Part shown: one piece after another, positions 15,806 through 62,720 of the stretch
How the letters are laid out: each line of letters starts with the position of its first letter
Numbering within the stretch: the first letter of the stretch is position 1
Assembly (NCBI GenBank): GCA_030710605.1
Contig: CP092886.1
Location: 48,151,794-48,215,793, forward strand
DNA: 64,000 nt
Direction of reading: 5' to 3'
Source of the DNA: Cordylochernes scorpioides
Taxonomy: Eukaryota; Arthropoda; Arachnida; Pseudoscorpiones; Chernetidae
The notes under the pieces: generated by a model
The model's input: only the letters and a program-made list of their open reading frames with translations
What the model was told of the DNA's origin: nothing
The model's database searches: none
Translations under genes and position numbers: made by a program

Positions 15806-16105
15806 ATTATCCCTAGTACACGTGGTACAGGCCACGATAATCATAGTGGGTAGAAGTTGGCGAATGCTTTTACTGTAAGTGCCCCACATGTCTACACATG
15901 GGAAAAGCAGTTCGACTTTTGCACTTATAAATGAGCCAGAGCCCCGTTTGGTTACTTACACTCGCTGGTTGAGTTGGACTTTTGCAAGAATCGGGGGCCA
16001 TTGGAGAATTTTTTTCAATCAGAAAAAAAAGTGCCCAATGCAGGATTCGATCCCGGGTCGTAGCGGTCGAAAACCAATGGTTTAGACATCCTTCCATCGA
16101 CTCCT
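15806..16105 (-). mobile_element. tRNA-derived SINE, copy 2
   Basis: Minus-strand copy running from a tRNA-like head with GGGATCGAATCC (near 16050) to the CTAGGGATAA end at 15806. Its allelic partner lies at 33663-33968. Overlapping open frames on both strands are shadows of the SINE. Confidence 0.85.
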
Positions 16106-19297: not shown

Positions 19298-20246
19298 GTG
19301 AACAGCACTTCAACAACAGACGAAAAAATTAATGAAGTGGAGAAAATGATATTGGCCAATCGTCGAATCACCGTTAGAGAAGTTGCTGAGGACCTAAACA
19401 TATCGATTGGCTCGTGCCTTTCGATTTTTATCAATGATTTGGGCATGAGACGGGTCGCCGCGAAATTCGTACCAAAATTGCTCAATTGCGACCAAAAACA
19501 GCATCGCATGAACCTTGCTAATGAGATGTTAGACTCTGTCCGCGACGACCCAAATATGCTCCAGAGGGTCATAACTGGTGACGAAGCGTGGGTTTATGGT
19601 TATGACGTGGAAACCAAAGCTCAATCATCTCAATGGAAGCTGCCGCACAAACCAAGACCGAAAAAAGCACGCCAAGTTCGGTCGAATGTGAAAGTTTTGC
19701 TGACAGTTTTCTTCGATTGCAGGGGCGTGGTGCATCATGAGTTCTTGCCACAGGGTAGAAGGGTCAATAAGGAATATTACCTGCAAGTTATGCGCAATTT
19801 GCGCGAAGCAATCCGCCAGAAACGCCCGGATTTGTGGAAGAACAAAAATTGGCTTTTGCACCACGATAACGCCCCTGCTCACACATCGTTGCTTGTGCGC
19901 GACTTTTTGGCCAAAAAACAACACACTAATGATGCCGCAGCCACCGTATTCGCCAGATCGGGCCCCCTGTGACTTTTTCTTGTTCCCTAAACTGAAGAGG
20001 CCCATGAAAGGACGACGTTACGCTACGCTTGACGATATAAAGACGGCATCGAAGGAGGAGCTGAAAAGGTTTTTTAAAAAATGATTTTTTGAAGTGCTTC
20101 GAAGATGGAAAAACCGTTGGCACAAGTGTATAATATCTCATGGGGATTACTTTGAAGGGGACAAAATAGGTATTCATGAATAAATAAATAATATTTGAAA
20201 AAAAAAAACACAAAAGTCGCGATACCTTTTGAACACACCTCGTATA
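19298..20246 (+). pseudogene. Mariner-family transposase, 5'-truncated, frameshifted
   Basis: The reading frame encodes the second helix-turn-helix region and the DDE/D catalytic domain of an irritans-like mariner transposase, which would cut and paste the element at TA sites. Visible landmarks are TGDEAWVYGYD (first Asp), HHDNAPAHTS (second Asp) and YSPDRAPCDFF (third Asp, the D,D34D pattern). The first helix-turn-helix and the 5' inverted end are missing; an unrelated inverted repeat adjoins instead. An A-run one base too long near 19915 shifts the frame before the third Asp. Downstream, the 3' inverted repeat ends with GAACACACCTCGTA at about 20231-20244. It cannot encode a working enzyme as written. 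The allelic copy (29251-30185) is intact at this A-run but broken elsewhere. Confidence 0.9.
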
Positions 20247-26987: not shown

Positions 26988-27490
26988 CAATGTTGACTCA
27001 AAAGTTCGTAAACACTTGCAAAAAAATTGACATACCAATATAATTCGCCATAATATTATTCGTCGTTATGTATAATGTCTTTGTATTATTTATTTATTAT
27101 TATTATTTTTTTTGCTTATCCCTAGTACACGTGGTACAGGCCATGATAATCATGGTGGGTAGTTAGCGACTGCTTTTACTGTAAGTGCACCACATGTCTA
27201 CACATGTGAAAAGCAGTTCGACTTTGCACTTACTAATGCCAGAGCCCCGTTTGGTTACTTGCACTCGCTGGTGGGGTTGGACTTTTGCAAGAATCGGGGG
27301 CCATTGGAGCATTTTTTTTTCTTTAAACAGAAAAAAGTGTCCAATGCGGGTTCGAACCCGGGTCCTAGTGGTCGAAAACCAAACGGTTTAACCAGCCTTC
27401 CACCGACCCCCATTGTATTATTTATAAAGTAATTGTATTATGTATTCGCAAAAAAACAAAAAAAAAAAACACGAAATTTTGGGACAACCA
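26988..27490. mobile_element. MITE C copy split by a SINE
   Basis: The inverted ends (GTTGACTCAAAAGTTCG at 26991 and TTTTGGGACAACCA near 27478) match 21810-21980. The interior is interrupted at 27093-27412 by a SINE, so the MITE is older than the SINE. Confidence 0.8.
27093..27412 (-). mobile_element. SINE insertion, right haplotype only
   Basis: Full-length minus-strand SINE with a GGGTTCGAACCC B-box core near 27350 and a TAA-rich tail at 27093-27112. It is flanked by a 12-bp duplication, TTGTATTATTTA, at 27081-27092 and 27413-27424. The other arm has the uninterrupted site near 21875-21890. This is a clear presence/absence difference between the two copies. Confidence 0.92.
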
Positions 27491-29250: not shown

Positions 29251-30185
29251 ACGAGGTGTGTTCAAAAGGTATCGCGACTTTTGTGGTTTTTTTTTTCAAA
29301 TATTATTTATTTATTCATGAATACCTATTTTGTCCCCTTCAAAGTAATCCCCATGAGATATTATACACTTGTGCCAACGGTTTTTCCAATCTTCGAAGCA
29401 CTTCAAAAAATCATTTTTTAAAAAACCTTTTCAGCTCCTCCTTCGATGCCGTCTTTATATCGTCAAGCGTAGCGTAACGTCGTCCTTTCATGGGCCTCTT
29501 CAGTTTAGGGAACAAGAAAAAGTCACAGGGGGCCAGATCTGGCGAATACGGTGGCTGCGGTATCATTAGTGTGTTGTTTTTGGCCAAAAAGTCGCGCACA
29601 AGCAACGATGTGTGAGCAGGGGCGTTATCGTGGTGCAAAAGCCAATTTTTGTTCTTCCACAAATCCGGGCGTTCTGGCGGACTGCTTCGCGCAAATTGCG
29701 CATAACTTGCAGGTAATATTCCTTATTGACCCTTCTACCCTGTGGCAAGAACTCATGATGCACCACGCCCCTGCAATCGAAGAAAACTGTCAGCAAAACT
29801 TTCACATTCGGCCGAACTTGGCGTGCTTTTTTCGGTCTTGGTTTGTGCGGCAGCTTCCATTGAGATGATTGAGCTTTGGTTTCCACGTCATAACCATAAA
29901 CCCACGCTTCGTCACCAGTTATGACCCTCTGGAGCAAATTTGGGTCGTCGCGGACAGAGTCTAACATCTCATTAGCAAGGTTCATGCGATGCTGTTTTTG
30001 GTCGCAATTGAGCAATTTTGGTACGAATTTCGCGGCGACCCGTCTCATGCCCAAATCATTGATAAAAATCGAAAGGCACGAGCCAATCGATATGTTTAGG
30101 TCCTCAGCAACTTCTCTAACGGTGATTCGACGATTGGCCAATATCATTTTCTCCACTTCATTAATTTTTTCGTCTGTTGTTGAAG
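29251..30185 (-). pseudogene. Mariner transposase, allelic copy with different break
   Basis: Same element as 19298-20246 on the other strand. The third catalytic region is in frame here and reads YSPDLAPCDFF. A base missing from an A run near 29672 instead shifts the frame between the first Asp and HHDNAPAHTS. The inverted end TACGAGGTGTGTTCAAAAGG begins at about 29250. The N-terminal domain is absent here too, so the truncation is shared while the frameshifts are not. Confidence 0.9.
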
Positions 30186-30189
30186 TGCT

Positions 30190-30570
30190 GTTCGCCTATC
30201 TTCTCGGAAAAATTCAAACTCCTTGTAAGCTTATTATCCGCATGATGCGCGCACGAGAAGTGTTGTTTTATATAACATATGTTGGTGTGACCAGACCATT
30301 TAATTTGAATTGTTGTATCTTCAGAAATAAAATACTATATATATTTTGACTATTTTTGTTTTAACTGATTTTAACAATCATACCTACAGTTAAAACAAAA
30401 ATAGTCAAATATATACGATTATATAGCATTTTATTTCTGAAGATACAATAATTCAAATTAAATGGTCTGGTCACACCAACATATGTTATGTAAAACAACA
30501 CTTCTCGTGCGCCCATCACGCGGATAATAAACTTACAAGGAGTTTTAATTTTTCCGAGAAGAAGATAGGC
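30190..30570. repeat. Inverted repeat beside mariner, allelic copy
   Basis: Matches 18930-19290. Confidence 0.7.
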
Positions 30571-32390: not shown

Positions 32391-33662
32391 TTTTAACGCA
32401 AAGTTTGGGTAATGATTATATTTATGTATCAGAAGAAATACCTTTCCTTTTAAAAATGGATTCAAACGATGCATTTTTATCAGCCCTATGTGAAACGCAA
32501 AGATGGAGATAAAGAATACAACATCAGATTTCACAAATTCAGACAAAAGGCAATCCCATGGTCTCGGTTCTTCATCAGCACAAGGACAGTTCCAATTTGA
32601 TAACATTCGAAGTAGGAGATTTTTCAATTCGGCTAAGTTGGCTCAAATGGTGTTTTAGTTGGTAATATGCCAGAGTCAATTTTCAGAACAGAATAAAACG
32701 CAAAGTTAAAGGAGGATGGTATCCATGTACCAGAGAGAAGGAGTATCTTCGTTTTAAAATGTGTTAAAATAAATCATTTTCCTTATTACCCATGTTGTGG
32801 CACATTCTTTAGCTCCAATTGTTTCGTTCTTGTACAGGAGACAATTTATATTGTTTCGATGTAATTTAAAAAGGAGAGATGGTTTTTTGCACATATATGG
32901 GCGAATATACAATAGGAAAATATTCGTTAAATGGTCTACAAGTGTATAAGAGGTGGACAAATAGCAGGTAATAAGTATATAAGAAAATAAAAATACCAGA
33001 GAGATGTAGACAAGAAATCAAAGCAACGCAGAGAAAGAGCATGTACAATGTTTTATACTTTCAAATGCAGTATGTAAATATATATATATAAGAAGGGATC
33101 TTTGAGAGGCGTGAAGTGCTGATTTTTTTTTTCAATGAGGTCGGTAAAGTATCAAATTTCATTCTATAAATAATAGATACCCTTTTAGCCATGTTTTTTT
33201 TTAATTTCTAGCGTATTTAGTCGTGATTCATGGAAATAAAAAAAAAGACTTTAAATATGAGACAAAGGCTCAGAATAACCTGCTTATTTTCAAATGATCT
33301 CTCTACTTTTTTTTTTATTAATTTGATATCTTGACACTTTATCTCTCGTTTTAATTTTTATTCATTATTGCATTAATATATTTACAGCTCCACTCTGTGT
33401 CCATGACTACTTGGGTAATATTCCTTTACCTAACCGTATATTATTACAGATTGATAATTCTATTGGTGTTATGGGAGTATTAGGTCTAAGATTGCTGAAT
33501 TTTCAGTAAGAATCTGGAATGACTCACGAGAGACGACAATAGCAGCACATATGGAGCTAGAATACACATCGCACGACAAAGCTCTACGTGTAAAAGAACT
33601 GACTCGTTTACCACAAAATTTCCTTTTGATTTTCCATTATCCAAATTCACATAGAATGCTAA

Positions 33663-33968
33663 GGGGGTCGGTGGAAGGATGTCTAAACCATTGGTTTTTC
33701 GACCGCTACGACCCGGGATCGAATCCCGTATTTGGCACTTTTTTTTTCTGATTAAAAAAGAAAATGCTCCAATGGCCCCCGATTTTTGCAAAAGCCTAAC
33801 AGCGAGTGCAAGTAACCAAATGGGGATCTGGCATCTGGCTCATTTATAAGTACAAAAGTCGAACTGTTTTTCACATGTGTAGATATGTGGTGCACTTACA
33901 GTAAAAGCAGTCGCCAACTTTTACCCACCATGATTATCGTGACCTGTACCACGTGTACTAGGGATAAT
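33663..33968 (+). mobile_element. tRNA-derived SINE, allelic to 15806-16105
   Basis: Head GGGTCGGTGGAAGGATG at 33665, B-box-like GGGATCGAATCC near 33715, tail CTAGGGATAA at 33958. Present in both arms, hence older than the SINE at 27093. Confidence 0.85.
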
Positions 33969-48842: not shown

Positions 48843-48942
48843 NNNNNNNNNNNNNNNNNNNNNNNNNNNNNNNNNNNNNNNNNNNNNNNNNNNNNNNNNN
48901 NNNNNNNNNNNNNNNNNNNNNNNNNNNNNNNNNNNNNNNNNN
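48843..48942. other. Assembly gap, 100 N
   Basis: Second 100-N scaffold join. It separates the probable haplotig from the contig carrying the chitin-binding gene and cuts off that gene's 3' end. Confidence 0.98.
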
Positions 48943-51900
48943 TTTCTCCTTTGAGGGCTGGTTAGGAGAGATTATTTCTTCATTCAACTTTGATAAATCA
49001 GAAATTTCGGCTTGTTTAATATTAACCTGACCATCAGATTGAACAGATTGTTTCTTTACGCTCGAACTCTGGTTGGAGGAAATGATAATTTCAATCAACT
49101 TATATAATTGGGGATATATCTAATTGCTGCTTTTTAACTGGACTGTCGGATTGAGGTGATGAACCCTCCTCCTTAGATGGTTTGTTAGGAGAAACAAGTT
49201 CCTCAATAAGTTTAGAAATTTCGATGATATTTACCTGCTTCCTATTAACTGGACTGTCGGATTGTGGTGATGGACCCTTTTCCTTAGAAGGCTGGTTAGG
49301 TGAGACTAGTCCCTCAATAATTTCAGAGATATCAGGGATATCTGCTTGTGGCTTCTTAACTGGACCTTCGGATTGTGGGGATGGACCCTTCTCCTTAGAA
49401 GGTTGGTCAGGCGAAACTAGTTCTTCAATACGCTTTATTATTTCATTGATATCTACCTTCTGCTTTTTAACTGGACTGTCGGATTGTGGGGATGGACCCT
49501 TCTCTTTAGAAGGCTGGTTAGGCGAAACAAGATCCTCAATAAGCTTTGAAATTTCGATGATATTTACCTGCTTCTTATTAACTGGGCTGTCGGATTGTGG
49601 TGATGGACCCTTTTCCTTAGAAGGCTGGTTAGGTGACACTAGTCCCTCAATAAGTTTAGAGATATCAGGGGATATCTGCTTGTGGCTTCTTAACTGGACT
49701 CTCGGATTGTGGTGATGGACCCTTCTCCTTAGATGGCTGGTTAGGTGAGACTAGTCCCTCAATAAGTTTAGAGATATCAGGGATATCTGCTTGTGCTTCT
49801 TAACTGGACTCTCGGATTGTGGTGATGGACCCTTCTCCTTAGATGGTTGGTTAGGCGAAACAAGTTCTTCAATACGCTTTATTACTTCATTGATATCTAC
49901 CTTCTGCTTTTTAACTGGACTGTCTGATTGTGGGGATGGACCCTCTCATTAGAAGGCTGGTTAGGCGAAACAAGTTCCTCAATAAGCTTAGAAATTTCAT
50001 TGATATCTAACTGCTTCCTATTAACTGGGCTGTCGGATTGTGGTGCTGGACCCTTCTCTTTAGAAGGCTGGTTAGGTGAGACTAGTCCCTCAATAATTTC
50101 AGAGATATCTGCTTGTGGCTTCTTAACTGGACTCTCGGATTGTGGTGATGGACCCTTCTCATTAGAAGGCTGGTTAGACGAAAGAAGTTCCTCAATAAGC
50201 TTAGAAATTTCATTGATATCCACTTGCTTCTTAATAACTAGACTGTCAGATTGTGGTGATGGACCCTTCTCCTTAGATGGTTGGTCAGGCGAAACAAGTT
50301 CTTCAATACGTTTTATTATTTCATTGATATCTACCTTCTGCTTTTTAACTGGACTGTCGGATTGTGGGGATGGACCCTTCTCTTTAGAAGGCTGGTTAGG
50401 TGAGACTAGTCCCTCAATAATTTCAGAGATATCAGGGATATCTGCTTCTGGCTTCTTAACTGGACTCTCGGATTGTGGTGATAGACCTTTCTCCTTAGAT
50501 GGTTGGTTAGGCGAAACAAGTTCTTCAATAAGTTTTGAAATTTCATTGATATCTAACGGCTTCTTATTATCTGGACTGTCGGATTGTGGGGATGGACCCT
50601 TCTCATTAGAAGGCTGGTTAGGCGAAACAAGTTCCTCAATAAGCTTAGAAATTTCATTGATATCTATCGGCTTCTTATTATCTGAACTGTCGGATTGTGG
50701 TGATGGACGCTTCTCTTAGATGGTTGGGTCAGGCGAAACAAGTTTTTCAATACGTTTTATTATTTCATTGATATCTACTTTCTGCTTTTCAACTGGACTG
50801 TCGGATTGTGGAGATGGACCCTTCTCATTAGAAGGCTGGTTAGGCGAAACAAGTTCCTCAATAAGTTTAGAAATTTCATTGATATCTAACCGCTTCCTAT
50901 TAACTGGACTGTCGGATTGTGGTGATGGACCCTTCTCCTTAGATGGTTGGTTTGGTGAGACTAAGCCCTCAATAATTTCAGAGATATCAGGGATATCTGC
51001 TTGAGGCTTCTCAACTGGACTGTCGGATTGTGGGGATGGACCCTTCTCCTTAGATGGCTGGTTAGGGGAAATTAGCCCCTCAATAAGTTTAGAGATATCA
51101 GGGGTATCTGCCTGTGGCTTCTTAACTGGACTCTCTGATTGTGGTGATGGACCTTTCTCCTTAGATGGTTGGTTAGGCGAAACAAGTTCTTCAATACGCT
51201 TTATTATTTCATTTATATCTACCTTCTGCTTTTTAACTGGACTGTCTGATTGTGGGGATGGACCCTTCTCATTAGAAGGCTGGTTAGACGAAAGAAGTTC
51301 CTCAATAAGCTTAGAAATTTCATTGATATCTACTTGCTTCTAATAACTGGACTGTCGGATTGTGGTGATGGACCCTTCTCCTTAGATGGTTGGTCAGGCG
51401 AAACAAGTTTTTCAATACGTTTTATTATTTCATTGATATGTACTTTCTGCTTTTCAACTGGACTGTCGGATTGTGGAGATGGACCCTTCTCATTAGAAGG
51501 CTGTTTAGGCGAAACAAGTTCCTCAATAAGTTAGAAATTTCATTGATATCTAACCGCTTCCTATTAACTGGACTGTCGGATTGTGGTGATGGACCCTTCT
51601 CCTTAGATGGTTGGTTTGGTGAGACTAAGCCCTCAATAATTTCAGAGATATCAGGGATATCTGCTTGAGGCTTCTCAACTGGACTGTCGGATTGTGGGGA
51701 TGGACCCTTCTCCTTAGATGGCTGGTTAGGGGAAATTAGCCCCTCAATAAGTTTAGAGATATCAGGGGTATCTGCCTGTGGCTTCTTAACTGGACTCTCT
51801 GATTGTGGTGATGGACCTTTCTCCTTAGATATTTGGTCAGGCGAAACAAGTTCTTCAATACGCTTCATTATTTCATTTATATCTACCTTCTGCTTTTTAA

Positions 51901-54500
51901 CTGGACTGTCCTGATTGTGGGGATGGACCCTTCTCATTAGAAGGCTGGTTAGACGAAAGAAGTTCCTCAATAAGCTTAGAAATTTCATTGATATCTGCTT
52001 GCTTCTTAATAACTGGACTGTCGGATTGTGGTGATGGACCCTTCTCCTTAGATGGTTGGTCAGGCGAAACAAGTTTTTCAATACGTTTTATTATTTCATT
52101 GATATCTACTTTCTTCTTTTCAACTGGACTGTCGGATTGTGGAGATGGACCCTTCTCTTTAGAAGGCTGGTTAGGCGAAACTAGTTCCTCAATAATCTTA
52201 GAAATTTCATTGATATCTAACTGCTTCCTATTAACTGGGCTGTCGGATTGTGGTGCTGGACCCTTCTCTTTAGAAGGCTGGTTAGGTGAGACTAGTCCCT
52301 CAATAATTTCAGAGATATCAGGGATATCTGCTTGTGGCTTCTTAACTGGACTCTCGGATTGTGGTGATGGACCCTTTTCCTTAGATGGCTGGTTAGGTGA
52401 AATTAGCCCCTCAATAAGTTTAGAGATATCAGGGATATCTGCCTGTGGCTTCTTAACTGGACTCTCGGATTGGGGTGATGGACTCTTCTCCTTAGATGGC
52501 TGGTTCGGTGAAATTAGCCCCTCAATAAGTTTAGAGATATCAGGGATATCTGCCTGTGGCTTCTTAACTGGACTCTCGGATTGTGGTGATGGACCCTTTT
52601 CCTTAGATGGCTGGTTAGGTGAAATTAGCCCCTCAATAAGTTTAGAGATATCAGGGATATCTGCCTGTGGCTTCTTAACTGGACTCTCGGATTGGGGTGA
52701 TGGACCCTTCTCCTTAGATGGCTGGTTCGGTGAAATTAGCCCCTCAATAAGTTTAGAGATATCAGGGGTATCTGCCTGTGGCTTCTTAACTGGACTCTCG
52801 GATTGTGGTGATGGACCTTTCTCCTTAGATGGTTGGTTAGGCGAAACAAGTTCTTCAATACGCTTCATTATTTCATTTATATCTACCTTCTGCTTTTTAA
52901 CTGGACTGTCTGATTGTGGGGATGGACCCTTCTCATTAGAAGGCTGGTTAGACGAAAGAAGTTCCTCAATAAGCTTAGAAATTTCATTGATATCTGCTTG
53001 CTTCTTAATAACTGGACTGTCGGATTGTGGTGATGGACCCTTCTCCTTAGATGGTTGGTCAGGTGAGACAAGTTTTTCAATACGTTTTATTATTTCATTG
53101 ATATCTACTTGCTTCTTATTAACTGGACTGTCGGATTGTGGAGATGGACCCTTCTCTTTAGAAGGCTGGTTAGGCGAAACAAGTTCCTCAATAAGTTTAG
53201 AAATTTCATTGATATCCAACTGCTTCCTATTAACTGGGCTGTCGGATTGTGGTGATGGACCCTTCTCCTTAGATGGCTGGTTAGGTGAAATTAGCCCCTC
53301 AATAAGTTTAGAGATATCAGGGATATCTGCCTGTGGCTTCTTAACTGGACTCTCGGATTGTGGTGATGGACCCTTCTCCTTAGATGGCTGGTTAGGTGAA
53401 ATTAGCCCCTCAATAAGTTTAGAGATATCAGGGGTATCTGCCTGTGGCTTCTTAACTGGACTCTCTGATTGTGGTGATGGACCCTTCTCCTTAGATATTT
53501 GGTCAGGCGAAACAAGTTCTTCAATACGCTTCATTATTTCATTTATATCTACCTTCTGCTTTTTAACTGGACTGTCTGATTGTGGGGATGGACCCTTCTC
53601 ATTAGAAGGCTGGTTAGATGAAAGAAGTTCCTCAATAAGCTTAGAAATTTCATTGATATCTGCTTGCTTCTTAATAACTGGACTGTCGGATTGTGGTGAT
53701 GGACCCTTCTCCTTAGATGGTTGGTCAGGCGAGACAAGTTTTTCAATACGTTTTATTATTTCATTGATATCTACTTGCTTCTTATTAACTGGACTGTCGG
53801 ATTGTGGAGATGGACCCTTCTCTTTAGAAGGCTGGTTAGGCGAAACAAGTTCCTCAATAAGTTTAGAAATTTCATTGATATCCAACTGCTTCCTATTAAC
53901 TGGGCTGTCGGATTGTGGTGATGGACCCTTCTCCATAGATGGTTGGTTAGGTGAGACTAATCCCTCAATAATTTCAGAGATATCAGGGATATCTGCCTGT
54001 GGCTTCTTAACTGGACTCTCGGATTGTGGTGATGGACCCTTCTCCTTAGATGGCTGGTTAGGTGAAATTAGCTCCTCAATAAGTTTAGAGATATCAGGGA
54101 TATCTGCTTGTGGCTTCTTAACTGGGCTCTCGGATTGTGTTGATGGACCCTTCTCCTTAGATGGCTGGTTAGGTGAAATTAGCCCCTCAATAAGTTTAGA
54201 GATATCAGGGATATTTGCCTGTGGCTTCTTAACTGGGCTCTCGGATTGTGGTGAAGGACCCTTCTCCTTAGATGGCTGGTTAGGTGAAATTAGCCCCTCA
54301 ATAAGTTTCGAGGTATCTAGGATATCTTCCTGCTGCTTCTTTACCTGGCTATCAGGTTGATTTGATTGGTTCTTTTCTTTAGATTCCTGTTTGGAAGAAA
54401 CAAGTTCTTCAATAAGTTTAGCTATATCGTTTATATCCATCTGCTGCCATTTTTTAGGTTTGTCCGATTGATCTTTCGGGCTATTCTCATCAGAGGGTTG
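48943..54500 (-). repeat. 111-bp coding tandem repeat, about 50 units
   Basis: Each unit encodes 37 residues: an amphipathic core such as DINEISKLIEELVSPNQPS, then KEKGPSPQSDSPV and a KK/NR-rich linker. The hydrophobic positions I, L, I and L recur with 3-4 spacing, which suggests a short helix. The rest is rich in P, S, Q and K and lacks cysteine. Several variants occur in fixed order, forming a six-unit 666-bp block. More diverged units extend back to about 55080. The complementary strand is also open for 790 codons, a by-product of repeat composition. Confidence 0.9.
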
Positions 54501-57500
54501 TTCAGGAGCGATAATTCCTCTAACTAATTGATCTAAATCAGAGATATCTGCTAATTTACTATTAACCTGTCCATCTGATTGAACTGATTGGTTTGAACCT
54601 TTAGCACCGGAAATTATTCCTTCAATTAATTTTCCTAGATCTGTAATATCCGCCTGCCTAGAAGGATTCAATGAGTCAACCTGTTGGGAACTATTCTTCT
54701 GTGATAACAATTTTTCAATTAATTTATAAAGATAAGAAATTTCGTCCCGTTCTAAATTGCTATTTTTTTCATATTGCACAGAAGCGTCTTTATCAATAAT
54801 TTTTCGGTTAGACTCAAGAATTTCTTCAATTAAAGCTTTTAATTCCATAATATCTGCAAGCTGCTTTTGTGAAGACTTACTTTTTGGGTTTCGCCTGATT
54901 CTATACTTCTTTTTATATTCGATAATATTTCCTCGATAATACCTCTAATTTCAGAAATATAAACCTCTTCGCTCTTTGCATCATCATCCATTTGAGATGA
55001 TCCTTTCTCCTCGTTATTTGACAAAAGTTCTTTGATCAATTTGCTTAATTCTGAAATATCGACTTGCCTCATCTCATCCCTAACTACAGAATCATCAGAG
55101 TCTGAAGAGAGAATTCTGTTAATCAAATCTCTGATTCTATCTATAAGTTCCTTTTTAGAGCTATCCGATTTTATAGAAATCTTTAGCGAATTTTCTGGAC
55201 GTTCTTTCGGAATGACCTCCTCAATAATTTTGTTTACATCTGGTAAACCAAGTCCCTGTTTATCACGATCATTTTCATCTTCTACCATCTCTACACCATC
55301 TTGATCCTTAGCTGGACCAAGGACACCCCATGAATCTTTCTCATCGCCCCATTCACCCATGTTATTTGCATTATTACTCTTGTCTGCATTGTTTTCCCCA
55401 TGAATTCTACTATTTCCAACAAGGCTATTTGGAATTTGATTATTTTGAATGTTTCCATTGTTTAGAGAAGACTCATTATTTACATCAACATTCCCAGGTT
55501 CTTGAATCTGGGACTTGCCTGAATCTTCATTTTCCTCTAAATTAGAGGCGCCATTTTGATTCATTTGTTGATCTGGGCTATTTTCCTCTTGGGAAGACCA
55601 CGCAGACATTGGTTGGTGAGGAATACTCGGCCTGGATGCTTCCCATTTGGATAGTAGTCAGGCGAAAGCTCACAGGGTAAAGCCTCGTGAGCATGAACGC
55701 ACACTTGGTAACGTTGGTCATACAGAGTTCCAAGGGGGCAATAATAGCTATAGCGCATATTGCGAATGAGCTCACCAGATGGATCATATATGGCATGGCA
55801 GATGTGGAAAATCTTACACTCGTTATCCATATCTGCATAATAACCATCATACCGGCCTCTGCACGAGAAATCGGTCGAGATATCCTGGATAACCTGTTGG
55901 TATCCGCTGGGCAGGTTCAGTTCTCTCGCCGCGATCTCGTCCTAGGCAAACCAAGTCAGCATTAGGTCACCTTCGTCTAATGGAAATTATTTCAATATAA
56001 TTGGAAAAGAGAAATATATTTTTTTTTCCAATGGAATTTTTTACTTGAAAATTACATGTAAAATCCAACTACTGTAAATAATTAAGTTTTAAATGAAATG
56101 TTGTTATATCAACCATTTCAACTCTTTCAGATTTACCCGACATTTCGGCGACTCTCTGTCGCCTTTATCAAAAGAATTGTAGGCTGGAATACTAGTCTCT
56201 ATTTGCTAGGCTATGTTTCCAAGCTATAGGTTTTCATTACTTGAGATGACAGGGGGTCGCGTCGGGTGAAAATAAAGGAGTTTAAATTGTTTGGTAAACA
56301 ATATTCTCTCTGCAAAAAACTTCCCAACCAGCAAATATCTTCACTAATAATTAAGTGTGCTACATATTAATACAATACGTCAAATATTGGATTTAAAACA
56401 TTTAACTGGAATTTGATTGGCGTTCTGAAATTAAGAATATTAATACCCCTACATATATGAATAGTTGCTAAAACCCATTATTTGCATGTTCTTTTTTTAA
56501 ACATAAATATAATTATTAACATCTATATACTCATTTTAAGATTTTAAATATTATTGATATGATTAAAAAATACGTTTAAGGTTCAAAATGATGCTTCGAC
56601 ATTGTGTAATTTCTAGAAACAAGTGAAAAAAGTTTTTACCCGCAGAACTGCCTGCAAAGTTGTTCTTTTTTTTTGTAAATAATAAATATAATTTATTTTA
56701 TTGCTAAATCATATATTCATATGTTTCACTAAGATATTATTTTTCGATACGGTCATTCATTAATCTACAGTAGAGTTTCCCATGAAAGACTATGGCCTAA
56801 AAACATGGCTAAACCCAATTTCTACTGGAGGTGGTCTCAAAACTCTGTCATGTCACGCCAAGTCATGGGAAGTATCTCAACAGAGTCTCTAATGGGAATC
56901 ACTTTCAGGAAAATCAGAGTTGCTTTAGCTGGCCTCTCGTGGAAGACTGCAATACATTTTCTATTGAATTATTCTACTGTAAACACTATAAACCCTCAAA
57001 AAAGCTTCAGAGAATCGTCTTAATAATCTGTTTTGACACTTTTTGATAAACATATAATAAAATTGTAGATTGCTTAGTTCTTAGAAATATAAAAATTACC
57101 ATTTCTTCAGGGGAGAGCATTCTTCCGGGTTGTTCTTCGTTCTCCATGTCATGTTCGCCATGGCCACCGTGGTGGTGGTGGTGGGCGTGCGGGTAGGCGC
57201 GGGCTGCCGAGAGGCACACGGCTGCACCAACACCGGGGTGATGAGAACATCGCTTCTCTTTGGGGAAAAGTCTCCTTGGCACTCCCTAGTATATTTCCAG
57301 GTAGAAAATGGAGAAAACAATCGTAAGGATGACGTTTTATTTTGATTAAAACAATTAAACCAAATTAGTAAAGTTCAAAACTCTGACTTTGCCGGTCCCA
57401 AGCCCAGATGAAAAAGGAGGAGGGGGAGCAGTAACAAGCTCACTAAAAAAACCTGGGCTAAGCTGGCCCGGCTGATAGTACCCTGTAAGGGCTCCTGATC

Positions 57501-60500
57501 CAGGTATACAGGATGAGCAGCGTTTGTACTCCATGTTAGGAGCGGCTGCACATGGCGTCTGTTCGTCATGTCAGAGGCGGCCATTTCTTTTGGAGCTAAG
57601 TCGGCCTGCCACTGAGTAATGCTCCCAGTCTTAATGACAAAGGCAGACGCATTCTACTTCACCCAGTGTGAAGATAATAAAGAAGAGTAAAGTTCAATCG
57701 CTAACATACGAGATTCAAATCCAAGTACTCTAATAATAGGCGATGAGTCTCTATTATTAAGACAAAAAATTCGAGCTTTCGGTTTCTTTGCGAAGTGAAA
57801 ATATCATGTGTCAATTTTAATAAATCGAAAACAAAATTTCTGTAGTTCTGATTTTTATCACTGTATGTCAAAAACACGTGCCTAGGCATTCTTAAGAGAG
57901 CAGTTAAAATATTTGGGAGCCATATATGAAGGTATTCCGCCTTTATTAATATTGATTCAGGAATCTTATTTTGCATTTTACTCATCGATTGGAAGTTGAA
58001 ACCAAGAAAGTTCGAGTGGCGATATTTGGTAGGTAATGAAATGTATCTCTTGATATGACTGTTCTATAAATAATAAATGAAATAAAAATACATTCAAAAT
58101 AGCGGTGGGTTAGCCGGCGGGTTTTTATACATCTTTTTTTGCTTATCCTTAGTACACGTGGTACAGGCCATGATAATCATGGTGGGTAGGGGTTGACGAC
58201 TGCTTTTACCGTAAGTGCACCACATGTCTACACATGTGAAAAGCAGTTCGACTTTGCACTTACAAATATGCCAGAGCCCCGTTTGGTAACTTGAACTCGC
58301 AGGTGGGGTTGAACTTTTGCAAGAATCGGGAGTCATTGGAGCATTATTATTATTATTATTTTTTTTTTTAATCTGAAAAAAGTTCCCAATGCGGGAATCG
58401 AACCCGGGTCGTAGCGGTCGAAAACCAACGGTTTTAGACCATCCTTCCACCGACCCCCTCATCTTTAAAAAGGTTTTTTTTAAAGCAAAAATATCATGTG
58501 GCAATTTTAATAAATCGAAAACAAAATTTCTGCAGTTCTGATTTTTATCACTATAGTGGTAGCACTAGCAAGGCTAATACATAACTTTGGTTGCAATTTT
58601 CTGTATAATGTTTTTATATTAAATTATTTAACCGATTATATATATAGGCATCCTAACGAAACTTTGCTGAAATACACCTTGATAAGACCTGTGCAAATAT
58701 GGGTCCTAAGATTAGTTAGAAATATAACTACTTAGTAGTGATGATTTATTTTAGTTATAATGTGAGTGAGTATATTCGCAGATGAAAAATAGCAACCTAG
58801 TCAAATATTCTGATCAATAAAACGTATTTCAGTAGTTTTATCAACCATTGAAAGTTTTAATGAGAGATTGTTTAGTGAAACAACAACAACAACAAAAAAG
58901 AGAGAGATAAATATGAAATTAATTTCTCTATTTTTAAAGAGGGAAAACTTTGAGTGTATCACTTTCTAAGAGCCAAAGTTATATTTGAAATACACTCGTG
59001 GACAAACTTAAGGAAGTTGTACCTTTTAGAATGTATATCGGGTATTCTGACAATAACTCTGAAAGATATTACAGTGACCTTTATTGAAGACACACGAGAT
59101 AATCAAGTGTAAACAAAATTGCCTGTCTCCTTAGAAAAAAAAAAAAAAAAAAAAAAAAAAACAGACAACAGCGAAGTTAAAGACTTTCCACTTTCTTTAG
59201 TTTTGCCCATGAGTCTATGTCAGGCTCACACTTAGAAAAGTGAAATACTCGAAATCTTCCTATTTCAATAATGACATCGTTGCAGTTGGTAACCCTATTG
59301 CATGGATTATTATGTGAATATTAAAAACTATTGATCTTGATCTAGAAATCGTAAGTTGCTATATAGGAAAAACGTTTCAAACGCACCGAATTATGAATAC
59401 ATAAAAATATATATTCTGTATACACACACACAACAAAAGAGAGAGAGAGAGAGCTTTACAAATGTTGAATATTACAAAGTGGAGATGCAACTCACTAAAT
59501 TATACGGATAATTCAATTTAAATCGCAGATAGAAATCAGAAAGTTTTAAAATATCGAATTGGAAAAAAAAATATTTCGCAAGTTGGTTTTAAATTTGAAT
59601 TCCGCGCTAATAGTTTCAAAATCCCATAACAGATGGCGCGCTATGTGTGCTATATTGTAGATAGTGTTGTTACTTTTTGGTTTTAAGGAGAGGGGGGGAG
59701 GAAGTCATTATCTCCCCGCGAAGGTCGGGGGAGGTGGGTAAGTGATAGATTGGCGATAGGTGGAATTGGAGCAACCCATGTACTGTTTATTTTAACGCCA
59801 AGTGTATCTCGGTAGCTTCTACCCGTCTGTCTAGATAGACCGGACCCCGATCAGAAGTTGCCAGCTTTCGCAAGGCATACCTCTATATCGTCTACATAAT
59901 TTGAAGAAACTGTGATGTAACGATGTCGTCAGTTATCTGCAAGGTTGACTTATCTATATTTATAGTAAATAGCTTGGATAACGAGAGCGTACAGAAGTCG
60001 CCAGTTGTTGGTAAAACTTGTTTTATATCTATTTTACCTAGTTCGAAATTTCTCCGGGAGCGTACAGAAGTCGCTAAATGTCCGTAAAGCTCGTTTTCTA
60101 ACGATATTTTATTTATCTCGGACTCCGGAGCGTACATAAGTCGCCAACTATCCGTAAAACTTGTTTTCTATCTATCTTTTATTTATCTCGGACTCCGGAG
60201 CGTACAGAAGTCGCCATCTATCCGTAAAACTTGTTTTCTAACTATCTTTTATTTATCTCGGACTCCGGAGCGTACAGAAGTCGCCAACTATCCGTAAAAC
60301 TTGTTTTCTAACTATCTTTTATTTATCTCAGACTCCGGAGCGTACAGAAGTCGCCAACTATCCGAAAATTCATCTTCTCTTTGTCACAAAGAGTGACACA
60401 AACTTCTCGCAAGTCAGAGTGAATTTTAAGCTCTCTGAGATGTATCGGTTTGAAAGTACGCCCAAATGTCAAACAAATACTGCTCACACGGGATTTTCTA

Positions 60501-60921
60501 TTAGAACATTCAACCATTCAAATTGAGGCGGGTAATATGTGAATAATTTCTTAAGAATCAATATATCTAATTTATATGTGTATTGATATATAGTTAAATG
60601 TGTTACGATATATATTTTCTGTAGCCATATTCTCGAAAGGAGATATACTTCTAGTGTTATGAATACTATAATGAATGAAACAGACATTTCCTATGGAAGA
60701 GAATCAAATATAACACAAAATTCATACTATAAAGAAAACGTTATTTTAAAAATAGAACATATCAATTGCTTATTTTTCTTAGCCGCAAGGGCGCGCACAC
60801 ACAGTAGAAGGTTTGTTTGATTTGGATTTAAAAGAAACATTCTTGCCTAATGGGTTATTTCTTATGTATATATATATATAGAGAGAGAGATAGAGTGGAC
60901 ATTGTTGTCTAATGTTTATCC

Positions 60922-60953
<32 letters not shown>

Positions 60954-61598
60954 AAAAATCGCTATCTTATTCTATTTAATTAAAAAGACATATATTGAAT
61001 CAAAATATCATTTATTTTACCAATATTTCAGTTGGCTGAACGCCAACCTTTATCAAGTTGTTATAACATATTTATGGATTGCTCTATTTTCACAATCTTA
61101 TCCTATTGTGCTCCAAAACTGTAATTTTATTAAGATGTCTCAAATATAATCATCCAAATATTTTCTTTATAACACTGCTTTTTACAACTAATAAATTGTA
61201 AGATAATTTTCAAAAAAACATTAGATATTTATATAAATTATTTATAAATGTGAATGTGATTGTTTCGCATATGTTTAAACAATTTTGGATCTCTCTCTAT
61301 CTGGAATATAGGGTTGCATATTTTGTGAACTCGGAAGATAGTTATTTTACTTGTAGTAACAATAAAAATAATGAAAATATCATTTTTTAAACATTTGGTA
61401 AAGATTCGCCAATTAAGAACCCAGGCGAAGCCAAGAATCATTCGCTAGTTGTTCTATAAACCCCTTGTTAATCTATTACTCCGAGAAAAAAATAGCTAAA
61501 ATCTAAAAAATAGTATTACAAGCTAGTAGTAAATTGGAGAAAGACTGATAAATGTGTAGTTTTATAGAATACTCACCCAGTAATATCCAGCCTCTCAT
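48943..61598 (-). CDS. Secreted chitin-binding (CBM14) protein with long repeat tail
   Basis: Spliced gene read right to left. ATG at 61598 opens a 22-nt coding piece (61598-61577, donor GTGAGT). Exon 57221-57100 completes the signal peptide MRGWILLAVCLSAARA and a His-rich segment (donor GTAATT). The last exon starts at 55941 after acceptor TTTGCCTAG. Phases fit: 1 nt joins 2 nt at the first junction, and the second is phase 0. One CBM14 domain with six cysteines follows, then about 50 repeats of 37 residues. At least 2,370 residues are encoded before the gap and no stop is reached. The domain set resembles single-domain arthropod cuticle or peritrophic chitin-binding proteins (CPAP1-like). 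It would bind chitin outside the cell. Frameshifts near 55640, 54880, 51910 and below are most simply sequencing errors. Confidence 0.8.
55630..55941 (-). other. CBM14 (peritrophin-A) domain exon segment
   Basis: After acceptor CAG-like TTTGCCTAG (55950-55942) the frame gives about 20 residues and then FSCRGRYDGYYADMDNECK, with HIC, YYC, QVC and LPC completing six cysteines spaced 14, 5, 19, 12 and 8. GYYAD, the aromatic residues before the fourth cysteine and GTLYDQ are the usual CBM14 chitin-contact and fold positions. The frame leaves the repeat frame by one base near 55640, within the PNG/WEAS junction. Confidence 0.9.
55942..57099 (-). other. Intron 3 of the chitin-binding gene
   Basis: Bounded by donor GTAATT (57099-57094) and an acceptor at 55942. 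A CTAATGCTGAC-like branch site stands about 20 nt before the acceptor. Inside is AT-rich sequence with no other recognised feature apart from short chance frames near 56800-57046. Confidence 0.7.
57100..57221 (-). other. Coding exon: signal peptide end and His-rich N-terminus
   Basis: 122 nt. Acceptor GGTGTTGGTGCAG precedes 57221 and donor GTAATT follows 57100. Encodes VCLSAARA, a likely cleavage site, YPHAHHHHHGGHGEHD and an acidic end. The His run could bind metal or respond to pH, which is inference. Confidence 0.8.
57360..57690. other. GC-rich repeat-like segment
   Basis: Distinctly GC-richer than the rest of the intron, with stop-broken frames on both strands (for example a 69-codon minus frame at 57584-57375). 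It resembles the body of a dead retroelement, but I do not recognise the family. Confidence 0.3.
57760..57870 (-). repeat. PLE-tail-like piece and first copy of a direct repeat
   Basis: Minus strand: a stem followed by CCGAAAGCTCG, as at 2392-2510. The adjoining 70 bp (57798-57868, containing AAATCGAAAACAAAATTTCT) returns in direct orientation at 58488-58558, beyond the SINE. Confidence 0.5.
58142..58458 (-). mobile_element. tRNA-derived SINE in intron 2
   Basis: Minus-strand full-length copy with GGGTTCGATTCCCGC near 58400 and a TTATCCTTAG end at 58144. CATCTTT stands on both sides and may be a short target duplication. It lies between the two 70-bp direct repeats. Confidence 0.88.
58488..58558 (+). 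repeat. Second copy of 70-bp direct repeat
   Basis: Matches 57798-57868 with few differences. The sequence between the copies includes the SINE. Confidence 0.75.
58559..58990. other. AT-rich intron sequence
   Basis: An ACAACA run near 58880. Nothing else recognised. Confidence 0.5.
58991..59218. mobile_element. MITE A copy in intron 2
   Basis: TACACTCGTGGACAAACTTA at 58991 and an inverted end GCCCATGAGTCTA at 59206-59218. The interior has CTGACAATAACTCTGAAAG as in the other copies, and a long A run at 59135-59161. Confidence 0.75.
59219..59974. other. Intron sequence, nothing recognised
   Basis: A GA microsatellite near 59437-59452 and a GGGGGAGG-rich patch near 59690-59740. No exon seen. 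Confidence 0.45.
59975..60370. repeat. 70-bp minisatellite, about six copies
   Basis: GACTCCGGAGCGTACAGAAG recurs at 60121, 60191, 60261 and 60331, spacing 70 bp. Two more diverged copies lie before it (GAGCGTACAGAAGTCGC near 59984 and 60059). The inner copies are the most alike, as expected from recent unequal exchange. Lies in intron 2. Confidence 0.9.
60371..60999. other. Intron sequence with CA and GA microsatellites
   Basis: CA run at about 60922-60949, TA/GA runs near 60867-60892. Nothing else recognised. Confidence 0.6.
61000..61095 (-). mobile_element. PLE-tail-like repeat in intron 2
   Basis: Minus strand: CTTGATAAAGG, a GTTGGC/GCCAAC stem, GAAATATTGG and the AT-rich tail, close to the units at 7010-7240. 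Confidence 0.6.
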
Positions 61599-61606
61599 TC
61601 TGGTTC
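61577..61606 (-). other. First coding exon with start codon
   Basis: 30 nt: 8 nt of leader, ATG at 61598-61596, codons for MRGWILL, and one base of the next codon, followed by donor GTGAGT. It is preceded by CTGTGTTTTAG, a good acceptor, so a non-coding exon lies upstream. The partial codon G joins CC of the next exon to give Ala and continues a hydrophobic signal peptide, which strongly supports the start. Confidence 0.8.
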
Positions 61607-61839
61607 CTAAAACACAGCAGAGAGTTAGCATCGCTACATAACTAGGCAATAACATACTCTATCACCATAGTGCTCTGAAGTGTCTACTTGGAGAACAGGA
61701 AAGTGCCTGAGCTCGATCACCTATTGTTCTTTATGTGTACATAGCACATTCCCGTTATGGATTTAAAACCTAAGATAGATACTGTGCGTTTCGTGTGTGG
61801 GAAGCTTTAGTTTTTACTTGTATCTGTTAGATCATCTAA

Positions 61840-62095
61840 GTACACATAGTACAGGCCATAATAAACCTGGCGGGTATTTATCGAATACACTTTATTTACT
61901 GTAAATGCATCACATGCCTACGCATGTAGAAAGCAGTTGGACTCTTTGTACTTAAAACGTATCAGAGCGTCTGGTTAATTGCAATCATTGAATAAATTGG
62001 ACTTATGCAAAAGCCTAAAGTGCCTATTGCGGGATTCGATCCCGGGTGGTGTTGTCGAAAATCTACAGTGTCTAGCACTACGTCAACACTCCCGT
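61840..62095 (-). mobile_element. Diverged SINE in intron 1
   Basis: AAGTACACATAGTACAGGCC at 61841 and GGGATTCGATCCCGGG near 62031 match the SINE family with many substitutions. An old copy. Confidence 0.7.
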
Positions 62096-62189
62096 TTCTT
62101 AATAATCATGAGTAGCTGTTTAATGATATAAAAAAACACATGAAAATAATAAGTCAGAAAAATGAATTAAGCTCGGTCAAACATATACT

Positions 62190-62265
62190 AGCATTAAATG
62201 TTCCTAGTTGTTTGTTTGTTAAACTATCATTAAATGTTTCTAGTTGTTTGTTTGTTAGTTGAACT
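62190..62265. repeat. Short tandem duplication
   Basis: CTAGTTGTTTGTTTGTTA occurs twice about 38 bp apart, with ACTATC after each. Within intron 1. Confidence 0.75.
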
Positions 62266-62659
62266 ATCGTCACATCTGCGCCCTTTCTATACATTCGGCT
62301 GACATTGGTGTTGGATTCAAATTTCCGACACATCCAATTTCTATATATGAAGATGTTAGAATATTTCTTGAGTTCTATTGGAAAATGCATAAATTCCCTT
62401 GATGCCATTCTTTACTTAGATAATAAGAATGTCTCTCAATATGTATACGACATTCCAAAATATTAAATAATTAAATAATACTATAGCTTTTGTCATTATA
62501 TTTGCTGCACTAATTATAGCACATAACCGTTCAAAAATCAAGTCAAAATTTTAAAGAATTCTAAAAGAGCCAATGTGGTATATTGTAAAGGTTAGAAAAG
62601 ATTGCTCTTAAAGATCGCTGTGTTCCCTCCGTTTGAAGGGAAGAGCGGTGAGGCACCGT

Positions 62660-62720
62660 ACTCACCAGCTGAGGGAGGTGGACTGCCCAATCACACCACT
62701 GCCCCAGTATTTGTACCGAG
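62660..62720 (-). promoter_or_regulatory. Promoter and 5' non-coding exon of chitin-binding gene
   Basis: Minus strand: TACAAATA at 62715-62708, and an initiator GCAGTCC with A at 62684, 31 bp downstream. A 19-nt exon ends at 62666 and a strong donor GTGAGT follows at 62665-62660. It is in the right orientation, about 1.06 kb before the first coding exon, which has an acceptor. Very short non-coding first exons are frequent in arthropod cuticle genes. Confidence 0.55.

Follow-up and report, generated by a model that had tools for sequence, protein, structure and literature searches.

The DNA considered here is a stretch of 64,000 nucleotides (hereafter the window) from the pseudoscorpion Cordylochernes scorpioides (GenBank assembly GCA_030710605.1, contig CP092886.1, positions 48,151,794 to 48,215,793 of the forward strand), on the minus strand of which a preliminary description, made from the sequence alone, had proposed a chitin-binding gene comprising four exons, a signal peptide split over two of them and a 7-kb exon encoding one CBM14 domain and about 50 repeats. 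This gene model was largely upheld, and the best reading of the locus is a CPAP1-like secreted protein (CPAP1 being a group of cuticular proteins analogous to peritrophins) which combines a single CBM14 domain with a very long tail of repeats. Direct support comes from the domain, the splice signals and their phase, the repeat, the low ratio of non-synonymous to synonymous divergence (dN/dS) among its units and the helix predicted for them. The features are compiled in Table 1, with positions counted within the window; the junction positions of the preliminary description denote the ends of introns and not those of exons.

Table 1. Features of the chitin-binding gene (positions within the window; a slash marks the exon-intron border).
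Feature	Position	Strand	Signals or evidence
Exon 1, proposed non-coding leader of ~19 nt	62666..62684	-	CTG/GTGAGT donor; start estimated
Exon 2, 30 nt, start codon at 61598, 7 codons + 1 nt, first signal-peptide half	61577..61606	-	ttttag acceptor, ATTACTGG/GTGAGT donor
Exon 3, 122 nt, second signal-peptide half and His-rich stretch, last codon complete	57100..57221	-	tgcag acceptor, ATG/gtaatt donor
Exon 4 as assembled: CBM14, diverged repeats, array; maybe split by 1-2 short introns	48943..55941	-	Frames, unit alignment
CBM14 (peritrophin-A, ChtBD2) domain	55672..55863	-	Pfam PF01607, E=1e-8, 35.6 bits vs cut-off 22.1, full profile 1-53
Tail with diverged, irregularly spaced repeat-unit versions	54438..55243	-	Profile of 47 units
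Array, 50 units of 111 bp (37 residues); 47 core units at 54326-49121	48943..54437	-	Tandem Repeats Finder (TRF), wrap-around alignment

Good splice signals were identified for the proposed exons, and their phases agree. Exon 2 contributes 22 coding bases and exon 3 contributes 122, which when joined are in phase and run in frame into the exon encoding the CBM14 domain (acceptor cctag). The spliced exons 2 and 3 yield the predicted signal peptide MRGWILL/AVCLSAARA, followed by a His-rich stretch, hence the splitting of a signal peptide over two tiny exons was borne out, with the peptide being rebuilt in phase across the exon 2/3 junction. The guanine-plus-cytosine content of exon 3 (0.62) exceeds that of its 300-base flanks (0.45 and 0.34). 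Between 63990 and 57300 six start-exon candidates are in phase and carry GTRAG donors; three of these provide a signal-like start, as judged by a crude hydropathy and cleavage rule applied to the spliced model, and these three differ in their ATG only and all share the exon 2 donor initially described. For exon 1 the start was placed by means of a TACAAATA box at 62715 and a CAGTC motif some 31 bases further downstream, so that it is a predicted start only, and the promoter was assessed post hoc; when both strands of the window were scanned for this pattern five places were found, the other four of which form two pairs on duplicated contigs as judged by their coordinates. At the opposite side, position 48943 is not the end of exon 4 but a contig edge at a gap of 100 N (48843-48942), where the gene is cut off. 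A 70-base unit is repeated in 5.5 copies at 59985-60368, which is within the intron between exons 2 and 3.

The single CBM14 domain was recovered with a full-length Pfam match (Table 1), and its translation reveals six cysteines with a spacing of 14-5-19-12-8. Ten pieces of the gene were scanned against Pfam, a scan which left out some short stretches (e.g., between 49945 and 49668), the junctions and the sequence past the gap, and besides Chlamy_scaf and DUF6508 only this one CBM14 domain scored above the cut-off. Chlamy_scaf and DUF6508 pass their gathering scores within a repeat piece of 1015 residues and were rejected as spurious, as no single stretch passes alone; the Pfam and NCBIfam matches within the repeat were regarded as driven by composition.

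The array was resolved by TRF into 48.1 copies of a 111-base unit and by wrap-around alignment into 50 units, of which the first and the last two are diverged and the final one is cut by the gap; the claim of about 50 repeats therefore stands when edge and partial units are counted. Upstream of the array, the profile of the 47 core units matches at 55060-54995 (3.6e-5), 54650-54555 (1.9e-6) and 54548-54441 (3.4e-8), and more weakly at 55243-55157 (0.21), 54958-54893 (0.025), 54854-54789 (0.021) and 54731-54687 (0.0027). Within the array the identity between units peaks at a lag of six units (mean 0.884 at this lag, the highest of lags 1-24), followed by lags 15 (0.879) and 21 (0.869), with the remaining lags of 1-24 ranging from 0.80 to 0.845, and the peak at lag 6 argues that the array grew partly by the copying of 666-base blocks of six units. 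The unit consensus is DINEISKLIEELVSPNQPSKEKGPSPQSDSPVKKQQV, in which I9, E10, L12, S14, S19, E21, Q27 and S28 are invariant in all 47 units. Ser19 and Glu21 together form a Ser-x-Glu motif, which may be linked to Fam20-type kinases.

A short amphipathic helix had been claimed for each unit, and this is in line with the helical moment of INEISKLIEEL (0.735, a value not reached by any of 20000 shuffles) and with an AlphaFold2 model of four units, which predicts four helices of 12-14 residues connected by linkers below a predicted local distance difference test (pLDDT) value of 50, at a low overall confidence (mean pLDDT 49.8, predicted template modelling score 0.36) and from an alignment for which 18 stretches of four units each were drawn from the window. 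The composition of the repeat falls on the disordered side of the charge-hydropathy line (0.383 vs 0.421). As to the disordered tail of more than 2,000 residues, the disorder is predicted for most of it, but its length can be followed only as far as the gap and through broken frames. Relatives of the repeat were sought in viral contigs (query 54437-51948; 27 pattern matches, none confirmed), in phages (query 54437-53439) and in PDB sequences, with none found in the latter two, and relatives of the CBM14 region in viral contigs (no pattern match), prokaryote genome contigs (19 stretches matching the pattern, none confirmed) and PDB sequences (none), all of them collections which are not meant for animal genomes, so that these negatives say little on novelty. 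Scans against Rfam (at gathering level) and for tRNAs gave no match.

Comparison of the 47 core units in all pairs gave a dS of 0.444 and a dN of 0.136, i.e., a dN/dS of 0.305, and the entropy by codon position (0.325/0.248/0.641) documents that third positions vary most. The two other frames yielded ratios of non-synonymous to synonymous proportions (pN/pS) of 1.72 and 1.31 together with 72 and 272 stops; in the coding frame, the sole in-frame stop among the 47 units adjoins an alignment gap in unit 27. This codon pattern shows that in its past, though not necessarily at present, the array was shaped by purifying selection. An open reading frame of 819 residues on the plus strand across the array (51901-54360) was rejected as a by-product, the codon-position variation fitting the minus-strand frame.

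Several observations weigh against the reading of the locus as one long secreted protein. First of all, eleven frame changes interrupt the region, one of them between the CBM14 domain and the tail. Next, relaxing the donor rule to GT alone lets 22 of 68 joins with exon 3 through the crude signal test, as one half of the hydrophobic stretch is encoded by exon 3 itself; taken by itself, the signal peptide is therefore weak proof, and it is the splice signals that carry weight. The recent changes of the array are without sign of selection or are partly errors: the 28 changes confined to single units comprise 7 synonymous and 20 non-synonymous ones and 1 stop beside an indel, which is near the neutral expectation (24.5, 70.9 and 4.5 percent), and 22 of the 28 locate to units 22-47, where the array frameshifts lie except for the last one (unit 48). 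Changes present in two to six units comprise 14 synonymous and 15 non-synonymous ones. Finally, confidence in the structure models is low (mean pLDDT 49.8 and 52.2), and a poor model of the CBM14 domain, which was built without an alignment, gave no PDB match at E<=0.001.

How far the frame changes affect the reading depends on their origin. Nine of them are single-base frameshifts within the array, the first at 51912 and the last at 49105; those at 50730 and 50715 compensate each other. The alignment contains 22 indel rows, namely these nine frameshifts, nine rows belonging to one 9-base deletion and four rows from the diverged part preceding unit 0, where the frame remains open, so that these four were disregarded. 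The 9-base in-frame deletion lies near 50126-50109 at the junction of two units; no other single length change in the array preserves the frame by itself. In the case of a decaying gene, a formerly coding array, together with the segment that links it to the CBM14 domain, would carry true frameshifts, and the long protein would no longer be made. This alternative accommodates the nine array frameshifts, the two frame changes before the array and the apparent neutrality of changes private to single units, but is judged unlikely. None of the 47 units carries a clear nonsense substitution, the apparent stop of unit 27 being the one beside an alignment gap. Furthermore, all nine frameshifts are confined to the part towards the contig end, with none in 54437-51913 (chance ~0.007), and in eight of the nine the base gained or lost has an identical neighbour (contexts read by eye), the expected fractions being 0.42 (insertions) and 0.53 (deletions).

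An estimate of the error rate comes from the assembly itself. The window consists of three contigs linked by gaps of 100 N, two of which, contigs A (1341-22980) and B (48842-26004), are inverted near-copies of each other with 92.7-98.7% identity in eight blocks of more than 1 kb, and were probably derived from two alleles of one region set side by side by scaffolding. Contig B follows the gene past 48943 and, as a near-copy of contig A, may not be the true neighbour of the gene. In 21,687 aligned columns A and B differ by 87 single-base indels, 64 of which are in runs of two or more, and by 12.9 mismatches per kb. If shared equally, the indels amount to ~2 per kb and copy, as compared to 9 in 5.5 kb (1.6 per kb) in the array, a comparison which includes true polymorphism and hence gives an upper bound on the error rate, a point that also counts against the long-protein reading. 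As the density of frameshifts in the array does not exceed that of the single-base differences between the contigs, assembly error is favoured, and is the likelier explanation of the array frameshifts as compared to gene decay. The locus is real and unusual and most likely coding, and its assembly is incomplete and probably error-bearing.

The remaining two frame changes lie upstream of the array, one between 55657 and 55564 and one between 54944 and 54842, the latter having been placed by eye at an A-run near 54878. As assembled, the CBM14 frame ends at a stop at 55563-55561, giving a product of 174 residues, and the tail continues in other frames, hence the 7-kb exon initially described is not one open frame. 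It may be that two separate things are present, that is a CPAP1-like protein of 174 residues and an array outside its frame, belonging for example to another gene. Short CPAP1-type proteins exist, and the frame does stop in the assembly. Set against this, the tail frame, which opens at 55657 on the same strand, shares 94 bases with the end of the CBM14 frame and continues without a stop for 272 codons, a length to be compared with a maximum of 180 residues in 2000 Markov resamples, and diverged repeat units lead into the array, which makes two separate things distinctly improbable.

For the reading as one protein, the tail is joined to the CBM14 domain only if the intervening frame change is an error or a short intron, and either an indel or a short intron could account for each of the two upstream changes. 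One strong donor is found near each (55673 and 54880), and with acceptors that are in phase and rich in pyrimidines the first change would be spanned by an intron of 137, 572 or 590 nt and the second by one of 227 nt, e.g., the candidate introns 55673-55537 (137 nt) and 54880-54654 (227 nt). The donor of the former lies within the codon of the sixth cysteine, so that splicing there would remove this cysteine. The latter possesses a near-perfect donor (AAA/GTAAGT), but its splicing would remove two weak repeat matches in the downstream frame (0.021 and 0.0027). The splice sites and phases of the four exons initially described stand; the exon count does not necessarily do so, as it may be five or six.

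CPAP1 proteins are described as possessing one ChtBD2 domain, no other identifiable domain and a variable length (PMC3504105), with conservation being confined to the ChtBD2 domain, a small fraction of the protein, next to a large and variable remainder (PMC3504105). They carry a signal peptide (PMC5377371) and are expressed in cuticle-forming tissue and not in midgut (PMC3504105, PMC5377371). The present gene resembles them in its one ChtBD2/CBM14 domain, in a remainder that makes up most of the protein, in its predicted signal peptide and in its six cysteines, the latter as judged by their spacing in the translation and the full-length Pfam match; within the pieces scanned, it agrees with those parts of the loose CPAP1 definition that were tested. 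It differs from CPAP1 proteins, as far as these are described there, by some 50 homogenised 37-residue units, each with a predicted helix. The preliminary description had considered a CPAP1-type protein with a tail of unrecognised form, of which the CPAP1-like assignment remains the best reading and the size and type of the repeat remain unusual, while a large non-conserved remainder is already part of the CPAP1 description (PMC3504105). Most likely, the gene is an unusual form of a known cuticle-protein layout.

A mucin-like peritrophin, the repeats of which would bear dense O-linked sugars, is very improbable: peritrophin-A domains occur in nine mucins or mucin-related proteins of Drosophila (PMC2515642), and such a domain together with long tandem repeats containing proline and serine is present here too, but the repeat holds little threonine (0.4%), its Ser+Thr content of 16.4% (1727 residues, 47 units only) is below the 25% cut-off of PMC2515642, a soft boundary since the class includes the low-Ser/Thr member Mur11-A2, and each unit possesses a conserved predicted amphipathic helix. 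The eggshell mucin-like protein NlESMuc of the brown planthopper comprises 1626 residues with a 7-residue repeat and is reported to have low similarity to a chitin-binding domain only (PMC6530529). A literature search covering few subscription papers turned up no CBM14 protein with this repeat and no matrix-protein architecture of the sticker-and-spacer kind considered below.

Taken together, a secreted chitin-binding protein consisting of a CBM14 domain and a long repeat tail is considered probable, with a structural role in a matrix being suggested by this architecture. Its expression, secretion, chitin binding, self-association and tissue are inferred; the tissue may be cuticle, gut lining or eggshell, as had been proposed in the preliminary description. 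The type of CBM14 domain and the layout of the gene would by themselves suggest an arthropod source. The proposed mechanism assumes that the signal peptide directs export from the cell and that the single CBM14 domain would serve as chitin anchor, from which 37-residue units, adding up to a tail of at least some 2,000 residues, would extend. The amphipathic helix of each unit, located within DINEISKLIEELV, would provide a weakly sticky face, with the linker, rich in proline, serine, lysine and glutamate, remaining unfolded. Many weak helix-helix contacts may thereby allow the tails to bind each other or other matrix proteins, the outcome being a hydrated or condensed network tied to chitin. 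Here, the array frameshifts are assumed to be assembly errors and the two earlier frame changes to be errors or short introns. For C. elegans, it is argued that disordered, phase-separating proteins have a part in the chitinous cuticle of the pharynx, the families named being IDPA-C, APPG, NSPB and FIPR (PMC9629831); the present protein would share with these the disordered repeats and a likely role in a chitin matrix, so that they may serve as a model for assembly by weak contacts, and by this analogy a network role in a chitin matrix is plausible. A more specific idea, tentative and on balance unlikely, is that of a sticker-and-spacer polymer, a polyampholyte grown by six-unit blocks in which one CBM14 anchor is combined with ~50 or more evenly spaced helices and in which phosphorylation of the invariant Ser-x-Glu motif may switch condensation or mineral binding on or off.

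Elsewhere in the window, remnants of a mariner-type transposase were identified at 19298-19972 (plus strand; Pfam Transposase_1, E=1.2e-18), with 29566-30195 (minus strand) being by position the counterpart on the duplicated contig. A dispersed element of ~300 bases is present at 1099-1399, 15807-16101, 27107-27411, 33662-33967 and 58134-58458 in copies that are 81-89% alike; from its sequence it looks like a tRNA-derived short interspersed nuclear element, and the copy that was read contains GGTTCGATTCC, which we take to be box-B-like. ARAGORN reported no tRNA for this element.

A probable coding array that is broken by assembly implies that similar proteins may escape gene sets. The way in which chitin is connected to disordered protein networks in the cuticles and linings of arthropods is not well understood, and a single chitin anchor combined with a regular array of helices would offer a simple natural setting for testing how matrix properties depend on the number of weak contacts and on their spacing.

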